The notes under the pieces: model-generated | What the model saw: only the letters and a program-made list of their open reading frames with translations | Database searches by the model: none | Told to the model about the DNA's origin: nothing | In this document: one piece after another, positions 4,773-61,147 of the stretch | How the letters are laid out: each line of letters opens with the position of its first letter | Numbering within the stretch: position 1 is the stretch's first letter | Source of the DNA: Corynebacterium suranareeae | Lineage (GTDB): Bacteria > Actinomycetota > Actinomycetes > Mycobacteriales > Mycobacteriaceae | Assembly: GCF_002355155.1 (NCBI RefSeq) | Contig: NZ_AP017369.1 | Coordinates: 1-64,000 of the forward strand | Direction: 5' to 3' | Length of the DNA stretch: 64,000 bases | Program-made: the position numbers and the translations under genes

Positions 4773-5305
4773 CTGATCCCATTGAGCAGGCATTTGAACG
4801 CATCCGCGCTGAAGCCATGCGTCGAAATGGATCCGTTCCAGACCTCAAAAAGAATGATGCTTTTCGACGCCCCCCAGCGCCGAAGGGAGGCGTCGACAAG
4901 CGAAAAAAGGGCCGTCCCAGCGGCCTAGACGGCCGCCAAAAACGCTATGTGCGGGGCGCGGAATCGCTTGGATCTGTGCTGAATAAGGAAATTCAGCGTC
5001 GTGGTTGGGGCAAAGATATTGCCGGTGGTTGGGTGACATCCAACTGGGAGGAGCTAGTTGGGGCGAAGATTGCGCAGCATACGCGCGTAGAAATGATCAA
5101 AGATAAAAAACTGTTTATTACTTGTGATTCCACTGCGTGGGCGACGAATCTCCGCATGATGCAACGGCAGATTTTGCAGGTCATCGCCGAAAAAGTCGGG
5201 CCGAACATCATTACCGAGCTGCGTATTTTTGGACCGAAAGTACCGAGCTGGCGCAAAGGGCCTTTGCACGTCAAAGGACGGGGTCCGAGAGACACTTACG
5301 GATAG
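4769..5305 (+). CDS. DUF721 (DciA-like) protein
   Basis: A 178-residue basic protein whose C-terminal half (about residues 65-150, with W..LVG..IA.H) matches the DUF721/DciA family found next to recF and gyrB throughout Actinobacteria. DciA proteins interact with the replicative helicase DnaB in bacteria that lack DnaC; whether this corynebacterial homologue does so is inference. The first 60 residues are a low-complexity K/R/P tail that carries two oppositely oriented copies of the window-wide 12-mer (4859-4870 and 4890-4901). Translation is coupled to recF by an ATGA overlap. Confidence 0.9.
4859..4901. repeat. Inverted pair of the GCGTCGANAAGC 12-mer
   Basis: GCTTTTCGACGC at 4859-4870 and GCGTCGACAAGC at 4890-4901 face each other across 19 bp, so the arms can pair as a stem with one mismatch. 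The pair lies in the low-complexity N-terminal part of the DUF721 gene. This is the only place in the window where two copies of the motif form a hairpin. Confidence 0.75.
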
Positions 5306-5437
5306 TTTGGTGAAGAAAATCGTCGAATTGGGGCCTATTTTGCCGTTTCTCGCGTTGTGTGCGGTGCTAGGTGGGGCCCTAAGCGTGTAAGATGAAAAGG
5401 TCTGTATCGGATAAGTAGCGAGGAGTGTTCGTTAAAA

Positions 5438-7492
5438 GTGGCAAACACTGAACACAATTATGACGCTTCATCGATCACCATCCTTGAAGGTCTTGAGGCG
5501 GTACGTAAACGCCCAGGCATGTACATCGGTTCAACTGGACCGCGTGGACTGCATCACCTGATTTGGGAAGTCGTTGATAACTCGGTGGATGAGGCCATGG
5601 CTGGCCACGCCACTAAAGTTGAAGTGACCCTTCTAGAGGATGGCGGCGTACAAGTAGTCGATGACGGTCGAGGTATTCCCGTCGATATGCACCCATCCGG
5701 TGCGCCAACCGTCCAGGTTGTTATGACCCAGCTGCACGCCGGCGGTAAGTTCGACTCCGATTCTTACGCAGTGTCTGGTGGACTTCACGGTGTGGGTATT
5801 TCTGTGGTGAATGCGCTGTCCACCCGCGTGGAAGCTGACATCAAGCTGCACGGCAAGCACTGGTACCAAAACTTCCAAAATTCCGTTCCCGATGATCTCA
5901 TCGAAGGCGGCAACGCCCGCGGAACCGGAACCACCATCCGTTTTTGGCCAGATGCTGAGATCTTCGAAACCACTGAGTTTGATTTCGAAACCATCTCACG
6001 TCGCCTGCAAGAAATGGCATTCTTGAACAAGGGTCTCACCATAACCCTGACCGACAACCGTGCCACGGATGAAGAACTAGAACTAGAAGCACTCGCTGAG
6101 CAGGGCGAAACCGCAACCGAGCTGTCACTTGATGAGATCGACAATGAAACCGAACTCGTCGAAGAAACCACGGATGCACCAAAAAAGCCTAAAAAGCGTG
6201 AAAAGAAGAAAGTCTTCCACTACCCAGACGGACTTCAGGACTACGTAAAATTCCTCAACCGCAGCAAGACTGGCATCCACCCATCCATCGTGTCATTCGA
6301 AGCAAAAGGCGAAGACCACGAAGTTGAAGTGGCTATGCAGTGGAACTCTTCCTACAAGGAATCAGTTCACACCTTTGCCAACACCATCAACACCCGCGAA
6401 GGCGGTACCCATGAGGAAGGTTTCCGTTCTGCGCTGACCTCCCTGATGAACCGCTACGCTCGTGAGCACAAACTTCTGAAAGAAAAAGAAGCCAACCTCA
6501 CTGGTGATGACTGCCGCGAAGGCCTGTCCGCTGTTATTTCCGTTCGTGTTGGCGACCCACAGTTTGAAGGCCAGACCAAAACCAAACTGGGCAACACCGA
6601 AATCAAGTCATTTGTGCAAAAAATGACCAACGAGCACGTTGGACACTGGCTGGAAGCAAACCCTGCTGAAGCCAAAGTGATCATCAACAAAGCTGTTGGT
6701 TCTGCGCAAGCCCGCTTGGCTGCACGAAAAGCCCGTGACCTGGTTCGACGTAAGTCCGCCACTGACCTCGGTGGCCTTCCAGGTAAGCTTGCCGACTGCC
6801 GATCCAAAGACCCAGAAAAGTCCGAGCTCTACATCGTGGAGGGTGACTCCGCAGGTGGCTCCGCAAAATCTGGCCGTGACTCCATGTTCCAGGCGATCCT
6901 TCCGCTACGAGGCAAAATCCTCAACGTGGAAAAAGCCCGCCTAGACAAGGTACTGAAAAACGCCGAAGTTCAAGCGATCATCACAGCACTCGGTACCGGC
7001 ATCCATGATGAATTCGACATCAAGAAGCTGCGCTACCACAAGATCGTGTTGATGGCCGACGCCGACGTTGACGGCCAGCACATCGCAACCCTGCTGCTCA
7101 CCCTGCTCTTCCGCTTCATGCCAGAACTGGTTGCCCAAGGACACGTGTACTTGGCACAACCACCTCTGTACAAACTGAAGTGGCAGCGCGGTGAACCAGG
7201 ATTTGCCTTCTCCGACGATGAACGTGACGAACAGCTTGCTGAAGGCCTGGCAAACGGACGCAAAATCAACAAAGATGACGGCATCCAGCGTTACAAGGGT
7301 CTCGGCGAGATGAACCCGAACGAGCTGTGGGAAACCACCATGGACCCAACCGTTCGTATTCTGCGCCGCGTAGACATCGCAGACGCACAGCGCGCTGATG
7401 AACTGTTCTCCATCTTGATGGGTGACGATGTTGTGGCTCGCCGCAGCTTTATCACCCGAAATGCCAAGGATGTCCGCTTCCTAGACGTCTAA
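5438..7492 (+). CDS. gyrB: DNA gyrase subunit B
   Basis: GyrB is the ATPase subunit of the type II topoisomerase that introduces negative supercoils. The 684-residue product has the GHKL ATPase motifs ([12 protein letters not shown] near residue 47 and DDGRGIPV near residue 73), an acidic insert at about residues 206-255, the TOPRIM motif EGDSAGGSA near residue 467, the metal-binding DADVDGQHI near residue 541 and the C-terminal GyrA-interaction tail. The start is GTG with AGGAG 12 bp upstream. A candidate -10 (TAAGAT) at 5388-5393 lies in the 130-bp gap before it. A terminator follows. Confidence 0.98.
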
Positions 7493-7508
7493 TCAGCATT
7501 CACATGTC

Positions 7509-7537
7509 CCGCCTTTGGAAAATCCAGGGGCGGTTTT
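7509..7537 (+). terminator. Terminator of gyrB
   Basis: The interrupted stem CCGCC-TT-TGGA pairs with TCCA-GG-GGCGG and is followed by TTTT. It starts 17 bp after the gyrB stop. Confidence 0.8.
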
Positions 7538-7615
7538 GTGATTTCACCTTGGGGTCGGACACAGATACCCAACATTGGGGTTTCTGAGGGGCTTGAGCAC
7601 CGTGATCTGACTCGA

Positions 7616-59920: not shown

Positions 59921-59934
59921 AACCCCGTTTCTTT

Positions 59935-59990
59935 AAGATCGTCATTAAAAGCGAGTGATCCTTTTAATGACGATCTTGCAGTCTTTTTGG
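59935..59990 (+). terminator. Terminator of the riboflavin kinase-like gene
   Basis: AAGATCGTCATTAAAAG (59935-59951) and CTTTTAATGACGATCTT (59961-59977) are perfect 17-bp arms, followed shortly by TCTTTTTGG. Confidence 0.88.
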
Positions 59991-60150
59991 CAAGCGATCA
60001 TTCCAGCTTTTTAACCGATGAAATCGTCGTGCTAGACGGTGGTCGCATGGCCAAATTATCTGCACCTTGAATAACCGCATGCCTAAACAATGGTGAACAA
60101 TAGCAAGGAGGTTTCTTCGTCTACACAACGCATTGAAAGGTATCCGCATT

Positions 60151-61116
60151 ATGCCAAGCCAAAATAGGGGAGTGGTTGCGCATCAATTCGGTCAACCGTT
60201 GGATGTTTTGCAGATAGAAGATATCGCCACTGTGGATCTTGAACCGAACGCCGCCACAATTCGGATGATTGCTTCGCCGATTAATCCCTCTGATCTCATT
60301 CCTGTGACTGGTGCTTATCGGTCGAGGACGGCGCTACCTTTCGTTCCAGGATTTGAAGGCGTCGGTGTTATTGAGGCTGTTCATGCAGAAAGTGATCAAT
60401 CGCTTCTAGGGAAGCGTGTGATTCCGATTGGTTCTGCCGGGGGATGGCAAAAATTGAAAACCACCTCACTTCGATGGTGCATTCCAGTGCCCGATGACAT
60501 CAGTGATCTTAAAGCTACCACTGCGTATATCAATCCCTTAACTGCGGTGCGCATGGTTGAAGCACATACTGAAGATTCAAAGATACGTACTGCGGTGGTC
60601 AACGCTGCAGGTTCTGCGATTGCTCGCACTTTGGCGCAACTGCTGCGTAACAAGGGGATCCGAACTGTTGGTGTCTTTCGAAAGCCGAAGGCTGAACATG
60701 TAAACAGCCAGTGGGATGAGGTGGTGTACACCTCTGAAGGAACGTGGGTTGAACAGCTTAGGGGAGCTGACCTCGCCTTTGATTGTGTTGGAGGAACAGA
60801 TGGCACCAAGCTAGCGGAATCGTTGAGATACGGTGGCCGGTTTATTCATTATGGTTTGTTGACCGGCCAACCTTTAACACCACAGCTGTGGGAAAATCGA
60901 CCGGATCTGACAATCGATTTGTTCCGATTGCGAGATTGGGTTCATGTAGCCCACACCCATGAGCTACAAAGTGCCTTTGACCAGGTCTTTGATCTTATTC
61001 GCAGCGGCGTGGTGGATACGCACATTCAGGAAGAACTACCTCTTGAAGATGCATTGAGGGGAATTGAACTATCGGTAACTCACGCCTCTGAAGGAAAGAT
61101 TATTTTAAGGCCTTAA
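60151..61116 (+). CDS. MDR-superfamily NAD(P)H-dependent reductase
   Basis: A 321-residue zinc-independent medium-chain reductase of the quinone oxidoreductase/enoyl reductase type. It has ASPINPSDLIPVTGAYRSR near residue 45, PFVPGFEGVGVIE near residue 67, a Rossmann fold with AAGSAIARTLAQLLRNKG near residue 153 and AFDCVGGTDGTKLAESL near residue 210. Zinc ligands are absent. ATG 60151 (MPSQNRGVV) has AAAGG 10 bp before it; TTG 60133 is in frame. A further AAGGAGG at 60105-60111 is not near any start. Substrate unknown. Confidence 0.83.
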   Translation: MPSQNRGVVAHQFGQPLDVLQIEDIATVDLEPNAATIRMIASPINPSDLIPVTGAYRSRTALPFVPGFEGVGVIEAVHAESDQSLLGKRVIPIGSAGGWQKLKTTSLRWCIPVPDDISDLKATTAYINPLTAVRMVEAHTEDSKIRTAVVNAAGSAIARTLAQLLRNKGIRTVGVFRKPKAEHVNSQWDEVVYTSEGTWVEQLRGADLAFDCVGGTDGTKLAESLRYGGRFIHYGLLTGQPLTPQLWENRPDLTIDLFRLRDWVHVAHTHELQSAFDQVFDLIRSGVVDTHIQEELPLEDALRGIELSVTHASEGKIILRP

Positions 61117-61135
61117 GGTAAGGGAGTGGGAGGGG

Positions 61136-61147
61136 GCGTCGAAAAGC
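61136..61147 (+). repeat. Copy of the GCGTCGANAAGC 12-mer between convergent genes
   Basis: GCGTCGAAAAGC preceded by GGGAGGGG and followed by AATTTTTT. It lies between the MDR stop and the minus-strand GNAT stop, 6 bp beyond the latter. Confidence 0.7.

Follow-up and report, generated by a model that had tools for sequence, protein, structure and literature searches.

A dispersed DNA word in Corynebacterium suranareeae and its sister dialect: a candidate uptake sequence in the genus Corynebacterium

The window analysed here, the first 64,000 nucleotides (64 kb) of the Corynebacterium suranareeae chromosome (NZ_AP017369.1), carries 15 copies of the 12-letter word GCGTCGANAAGC, where 100 dinucleotide shuffles gave a mean of 0.04 and a largest count of 1. 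A function of this word at the level of DNA, already proposed in a preliminary description of the window, is strongly supported by its codon-aware excess, its base-by-base conservation and its use of six reading frames. We think it likely that the word is a DNA-uptake sequence, analogous to the DNA uptake sequence (DUS) of Neisseriaceae and the uptake signal sequence (USS) of Pasteurellaceae while unrelated to them in sequence, uptake itself being predicted. With slightly less assurance, we favour the wider proposal that many Corynebacterium species possess sequence-specific natural transformation by way of a Tad/Flp pilus, and that the two DNA dialects would sexually isolate lineages.

The word, its copies and their constraint

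The chromosome, a single contig of 3,537,507 bp, holds 644 copies of GCGTCGANAAGC (334 forward + 310 reverse), as against 2 + 2 for the reversed control. The family word NCGTCGWNAAGC, which is the broader, recognised form, occurs 592 + 572 = 1164 times (reversed control 18 + 19 = 37), that is at a density of one site per 3 kb, and is found 23 times in the window. The word was studied in a sample of 60 near-regular 20-kb stretches, one of them shifted onto comEC, together with the window, amounting to 1.264 Mb with 230 exact copies. Its one-mismatch spectrum reveals a core that is nearly all-or-none, a clear excess over chance being present only at position 0, the first letter, and position 6, the seventh. 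The first letter is unrestricted (G 230, T 63, A 40, C 31), while at the seventh A is usual, with T (26), G (12) and C (5) rarer. Single changes at the nine other fixed positions yield 0 to 5 copies per word, for a total of 34 against about 24 expected, beside the 230 exact copies. Since these one-mismatch forms lie near chance, one change in the core would seem to remove most of the benefit.

Gene calls on the sample produced 1030 genes, with 83.6% of the sequence coding. Of the 230 copies, 65 are coding in the sense direction and 111 in antisense; another 53 fall between genes and 1 lies on an edge; the intergenic share is slightly high when compared to the 16.4% of bases so classified (P 0.005). 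That the reading frame differs between copies was recognised in the preliminary description, and indeed all six frames are used by the coding copies, besides the intergenic sites. The same description had named beforehand, as a refuting test, a count near the codon-aware expectation. Shuffling of synonymous codons within the 1030 genes left, over 50 runs, a mean of 4.4 copies and a maximum of 10, to be compared with the 179 observed, far above that expectation. A by-product of codon usage or of a common peptide might be supposed from the 97 of 176 coding copies that share one frame, with the sense peptide L-[FILV]-D-A, and from the few genomes of other genera in the family that reach 21 to 25 copies against 2 to 3 of the reversed control. 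The use of six frames and of intergenic positions, the survival of only 4.4 of 179 copies on synonymous shuffling, and a free N among frozen neighbouring letters all speak against it. This explanation, contradicted for C. suranareeae, has in our view a next to negligible probability.

Conservation was assessed against a sole relative, G065, with 82% DNA identity over 184,957 aligned columns. These cover parts of 10 loci, and alignments were excluded if they were shorter than 300 bp or shared more than a fifth with a longer alignment. The aligned loci contain 43 copies in C. suranareeae and 39 in G065, with 36 at identical aligned places. For comparison, control 12-mers are conserved at the same 11 positions in 18.3% of all cases and in 19.2% of those of the same composition. 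By column, identity amounts to 98-100% for the core letters (positions 1-6 and 8-11), to 91% for position 0 and to 72% for the N, and in the flanks it ranges from 70 to 98%. Like the exact copies, family variants are kept within the family (25/27 and 6/7), whereas other one-mismatch words have their ten core letters unchanged in only 3 of 16 cases. Where the seventh letter is C or G, the word's own ten letters persist in 9 of 13 cases, but G065 never has a family member there; G or C at this position may also be weakly recognised.

The preliminary description had further noted that the match extends into its flanks, and a logo of 228 copies shows this to be real. The 12-mer is preceded by a G-rich run of ~11 bases (G at -1 in 78%, at -4 in 75%, at -7 in 71% and at -8 in 60%) and followed, at +12 to +17, by a tail rich in A and T; beyond this the logo is at background, with no clear conserved unit past about -11/+17. 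A weak 3-base periodicity is visible farther out in the logo and appears to resemble the reading frame of neighbouring genes.

The copies present in the window are the following, coding and intergenic positions being those of our own gene calls.

4859..4870, minus strand: exact copy GCGTCGAAAAGC, inverted pair with 4890
4890..4901, plus strand: exact copy GCGTCGACAAGC, inverted pair with 4859
10646..10657, plus strand: exact copy; the relative G065 has the family member ACGTCGAAAAGC here
11761..11772, minus strand: exact copy, intergenic
17384..17395, minus strand: exact copy, intergenic
18646..18657, plus strand: exact copy, intergenic, just past the 3' end of the minus-strand open reading frame (ORF) 18666-20357
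20520..20531, plus strand: exact copy, intergenic, just past the 3' end of the minus-strand ORF 20541-22166
25899..25910, plus strand: exact copy, coding
28132..28143, minus strand: exact copy, coding
34721..34732, plus strand: exact copy, coding
39125..39136, plus strand: exact copy, coding, antisense
45884..45895, minus strand: exact copy, coding
54988..54999, plus strand: exact copy, coding, antisense
58473..58484, plus strand: exact copy, coding
61136..61147, plus strand: exact copy, intergenic, flanked by convergent genes
409..420, plus strand: family variant ACGTCGATAAGC; the corresponding position in the relative G065 reads GCGTCGACAAGC
11922..11933, plus strand: family variant GCGTCGTTAAGC
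13308..13319, minus strand: family variant ACGTCGAGAAGC
24157..24168, minus strand: family variant TCGTCGAGAAGC
35347..35358, minus strand: family variant TCGTCGAGAAGC
52099..52110, plus strand: family variant CCGTCGTTAAGC
57383..57394, minus strand: family variant GCGTCGTTAAGC
63659..63670, minus strand: family variant TCGTCGAAAAGC

Ten of the 15 exact copies are coding and five intergenic. All fifteen had been listed in the preliminary description with the right position and strand. The three near matches that it placed at 411, 7781 and 16054 do exist, but at 409, 7780 and 16055, and only the first (ACGTCGATAAGC) belongs to the recognised family; the second has a mismatch in the core and the third has two mismatches.

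Layout on the chromosome and scarcity in mobile DNA

With the origin and terminus located by GC skew, 122 sampled copies are in the leading and 108 in the lagging orientation along the replichores (P 0.39), indicating no replication polarity; of the segregation sites suggested earlier, one with origin-terminus polarity is thereby contradicted. Copies occur in 57 of the 61 sampled parts, the remaining four being stretches of the integrated element described below, and they show no clustering at the origin or terminus of the kind expected for parS/MatP-type sites. A short, abundant and asymmetric word might suggest a polar sequence, either a guide for FtsK resembling the FtsK-orienting polar sequence (KOPS) or a recombination hotspot resembling Chi. 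The lack of polarity contradicts such a role, eleven constrained letters are long for Chi, and the word is missing from many Corynebacterium species, making this possibility highly improbable.

The four element stretches (L071-L074) were excluded from the spacing and density counts. In the other 20-kb stretches (n=56) the family count has a mean of 6.80 and a variance of only 3.07 (P for a lower value 1.5e-4), so that the sites are spaced more evenly than by chance. Gaps between family sites exceeding 8 kb number 3 against about 12 in simulations. There is at the same time an excess of family-site pairs <60 bp apart, 15 against 7.3 simulated. Of the exact pairs in the sample that lie this close, 6 of 7 are oppositely oriented, and two palindromic pairs lie between convergent genes.

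The element in question is a ~200-kb integrated stretch at about 1914430-2110000 (borders estimated) in the terminus half of the chromosome, with an aberrant GC skew of -0.13 to -0.15. Its four sampled stretches, 80 kb in total, contain 0 family sites where 27.3 would be expected (P 1.4e-12). It encodes an integrase, a MobL relaxase, a TraG-like protein, a DNA polymerase and a RecJ-like nuclease, along with a weak, sub-cut-off actin-like match, and resembles the large CGP3 prophage of C. glutamicum. In the search for phage relatives its DNA polymerase gave no match, and the integrase and tail-like matches were distant. Phages and plasmids of the genus are similarly deficient. At the density of G065, about 32 exact copies would be expected in four Corynebacterium phages (201,274 bp), which contain 2, and about 66 in eleven Corynebacterium plasmids (417,515 bp), which also contain 2; the 15 records together, at 618,789 bp, have 4 where about 98 would be expected, a figure that assumes word-rich hosts.

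These observations bear directly on another early suggestion, that of a tiny mobile repeat. The dispersal of the copies, some of them as inverted pairs, would be natural for a small mobile repeat or the remnant of a transposable element. However, the conserved unit stops at the word with its soft G-rich and A/T-rich flanks, and the 10 sites present on one side only in the comparison with G065 show 1 to 3 substitutions within the word and no gap. Four copies in 618,789 bp of phage and plasmid DNA are likewise at odds with it; the idea is contradicted and we find it scarcely credible.

Two dialects and the transformation machinery

Counts of the word, hereafter dialect 1, in 242 Corynebacterium genomes range from 0 to 869. 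The cut was placed at 15 copies, this being the highest reversed-control total; 177 genomes exceed it and 114 have more than 150 copies. A sister word, dialect 2 (GGCATCGNCAAGC), is present at 65-447 copies in 17 of the 242, and 16 of these 17 have 15 or fewer copies of dialect 1. Both dialects are held by G024 (208 and 32 copies), and some word-rich genomes contain up to 36 copies of dialect 2. By these counts 49 of the 242 have neither dialect. The logo of dialect 2 (90 copies) reads CATCGNCAAGC after a G-rich run, with the second free place occupied mostly by T or A; when the two dialects are aligned they have C-R-TCG-NN-AAGC in common.

A template-free search for over-represented words was carried out in 10 word-poor genomes, 80 kb from each, in which words seen at least 8 times were scored. 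Three genomes (G001, G107 and G004) returned a related word, GGCATCGNCAAGC or part thereof. In the 80 kb from each of the other seven (G241, G043, G011, G207, G018, G216 and G132) no clearly similar word was present at an uptake-like density. Certain of these genomes have patterns of their own. In G018, CGGGGCGTCG occurs 9 times against 0.2 expected in 80 kb; it overlaps part of the word and could be a third word, an unrelated or a half-related one. G216 has a palindrome, TCAGGTACCTGA, parts of which occur 8-9 times in 80 kb where 0.0-0.4 would be expected, possibly the site of a regulator. The word-free G132 has a CRISPR-like array, the unit of which contains ACCTCCGCGTGCGCGG, in about 51 copies. 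Low type-1 counts with an uneven strand split are seen in G004 and G008 (2/12 and 5/14, respectively).

Exact counts were also obtained for 12 named Corynebacterium genomes, all picked because the scan had already matched them. They include C. riegelii (290), C. silvaticum (337), C. lipophiloflavum (410), C. bouchesdurhonense (511), C. tuberculostearicum (142) and C. xerosis (64). Outside the genus the exact word numbers 37 in Gordonia sputi (control 9), 21 in Amycolatopsis pretoriensis (control 50), 5 in Lonsdalea quercina (control 6) and 19 in Cohnella zeiphila (control 27). Across 140 genomes from 30 other genera of the family, GGCGTCGANAAGC does not exceed 25 copies. The 21-25 copies in a few of these, such as G320, G333, G338 and G356, set against 2-3 for the reversed control, probably result from codon usage (GVDK).

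Dialects restricted to particular species, together with scarcity in phages and plasmids, would also suit a site that a restriction-modification system, or a similar system telling self from non-self, recognises or protects. Yet the eleven constrained letters exceed the usual recognition sites, a restriction site should be scarce rather than abundant in its host, and near words are not depleted. We therefore consider a role of this kind very unlikely.

The machinery that transformation would employ is present in C. suranareeae. Its comEA-comEC genes adjoin holA-, degV- and nadD-like genes, and it has a tad/flp locus of the actinobacterial kind; the gene names were assigned by reading and ComEC was confirmed by Pfam. 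In the text available to us of a study of Micrococcus luteus, also an actinobacterium, a Tad/Flp pilus and ComEA/ComEC drive natural transformation (PMC4322843). Within Corynebacterium, a ComEC domain is found in 241 of 242 genomes, and the T2SSE domain of a TadA-type ATPase in 239, in 235 above the curated cut-off, with 7 candidates scored per genome. A ComEA match is present in all 242, the weak matches having been checked in part. At 19 loci picked by their TadA match the other tad genes were matched too, at E values of up to 1, word-free species included. Since word-free species also keep this machinery, it does not explain which genomes carry the word.

Two gene-level causes of word presence were considered and rejected. 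The first, mere gene presence, founders on the near universality of ComEC and the TadA-type ATPase in the genus. The second was the ComEA E-value, which at first seemed correlated with word presence and was dropped after a recheck of 20 genomes. ComEA adjoins comEC in 19 of them, lying on another contig in G058, and its weak scores arise because the matches are split between its two domains. In G021, G072, G029, G230, G180 and others one piece of the match falls on the SLBB part and the other on the helix-hairpin-helix part, the frames being 254-373 residues long. The length of the linker seems variable, and the split is seen in many word-free species, the word-rich G180 and G122 being exceptions.

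A tree of two proteins from the 19 tad loci places all seven dialect-2 genomes sampled, out of 17, in one clade with a support of 1.000, in company with the word-free G043. Four word-free genomes form a separate group (0.974), and several other supports are weak.

Candidate roles and comparison with known uptake systems

Letter-level selection, presence on both strands, even spread, scarcity in mobile DNA, a clade-wide sister word and absence elsewhere are together the product expected of biased uptake and recombination. Among the candidates put forward in the preliminary description, an uptake-like sequence fits best, in view of the dialects, the scarcity in phages, plasmids and the integrated element, and the even spacing. 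The uptake, the receptor and the recombination drive that we infer would operate as follows. A DNA receptor exposed on the Tad/Flp pilus or close to it would bind double-stranded DNA containing CGTCGWNAAGC (dialect 1) or CATCGNYAAGC (dialect 2); the bound DNA would be passed to ComEA, threaded through ComEC and recombined. Word-bearing alleles would enter more often than word-less ones, and copies would in this way build up in the chromosome, gathering where proteins tolerate them, on either strand and with about one to each fragment length. No gain would be expected in phages, plasmids or recently acquired islands.

Several observations weigh against an uptake role. Nearly all of the 49 genomes without either dialect retain comEC, TadA-type and comEA matches. 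Conversely, the word-rich G095 (410 copies, a draft 99% complete) and G199 (656 copies, 90%) have sub-cut-off T2SSE matches only, the word-rich G190 (322 copies, 53% complete) has no T2SSE match among the 7 candidates scored, and G186 (dialect 2, 67 copies, 90% complete) has no ComEC match. In the tad tree, G043 sits inside the dialect-2 clade despite being word-free, and G232 joins the word-rich G009 weakly, with a support of 0.186. No receptor gene was identified: alignments of Flp, TadE1 and TadE2, compared by eye among the portions seen, exhibit no obvious dialect-linked difference. G at position 6 also exceeds chance (12 against 0.9) and yet was left outside the family definition. The density of one family site per 3 kb is below those of DUS and USS. 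Among the papers listed in the literature searched there was no report of natural competence in Corynebacterium. Judged by titles and the beginnings of abstracts, none of those listed appears to deal with the word or with a Corynebacterium uptake sequence; the letters of the word do occur in five publications, two of them on C. glutamicum.

Finally, evenness, conservation and absence from mobile DNA would fit a chromosome-binding protein as well. The protein-binding site suggested in the preliminary description is correct in a general sense, and in its more specific form, a non-polar site every few kb for a chromosome-organising protein (acting in nucleoid folding, in SMC loading, or in recombination or repair), it is the main rival. 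The strong letter-by-letter constraint, the even spacing with rare gaps over 8 kb, and the scarcity in phages, plasmids and the recent element would be equally expected of it. Less easily reconciled with it are the 49 of 242 genomes without either word, and the 7 of 10 sampled word-poor genomes without a clear replacement word at similar density, G018 and G216 having other k-mers. The sample shows no clustering at the origin or terminus, and we know of no corynebacterial nucleoid factor with an 11-bp asymmetric site of this kind. The dialects, and absence from a fifth of the species, make a chromosome-binding protein less likely, though not impossible, and we regard it as rather unlikely.

If the word does serve in uptake, self-recognition uptake sequences would, to our knowledge, for the first time extend beyond Neisseriaceae and Pasteurellaceae, and for the first time be seen in a Gram-positive phylum with mycolate walls. 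They would then have arisen a third time, independently, in a genus that includes skin commensals and pathogens as well as C. glutamicum, the producer of amino acids, which would show that uptake specificity evolves repeatedly with different pili; according to the available part of one account, such specificity is known from two Gram-negative families (PMC3630211). The word would also predict which corynebacteria exchange genes, and would make the natural transformability of Corynebacterium directly testable. Should the word instead be a chromosome-binding site, it would reveal an unknown nucleoid factor with hundreds of sites. On either reading the word with its frozen core can serve as ready bait.

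A close parallel is with the DUS of Neisseriaceae (GCCGTCTGAA and its dialects). The available text of PMC3630211 describes many coding and intergenic copies, inverted pairs in terminators, dialects that follow phylogeny around an invariant core, and some Neisseriaceae relatives with no DUS. The Corynebacterium word is alike in having many coding and intergenic copies, dialects with a shared core and relatives without any, its word-free species that keep the machinery paralleling the Neisseriaceae relatives without DUS. Its close exact pairs, 6 of 7 opposed and two of these between convergent genes, may correspond to the terminator pairs. It differs in its unrelated sequence, in belonging to a different phylum and in its likely pilus, Tad/Flp as opposed to the type IVa pilus with ComP, and its density is lower. 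One-mismatch core forms are near chance in Corynebacterium, whereas the ratio of DUS to DUS+1mut in two quoted species is 1 : 1.15 and 1 : 1.45 in the available text (PMC3630211). The single-change rule is thus seemingly steeper than in Neisseria.

The USS of Pasteurellaceae (AAGTGCGGT and ACAAGCGGT) is again a short asymmetric word with two subtypes, and the available parts of the literature describe terminator pairs for it. USS copies are also evenly spaced, yet the sequence is unrelated. The helically phased A/T tracts of the USS are not seen in Corynebacterium, where the word comes after a G-rich run and before a short A/T-rich tail. Abundant short chromosomal words also include HIP1 of cyanobacteria, KOPS and Chi; HIP1 is palindromic, and KOPS and Chi are polar, whereas the Corynebacterium word is asymmetric and non-polar. 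Micrococcus luteus offers the same predicted machine, tad genes together with comEA-comEC, in an actinobacterium, and differs in that the term 'uptake sequence' is absent from the available text of its description (PMC4322843).

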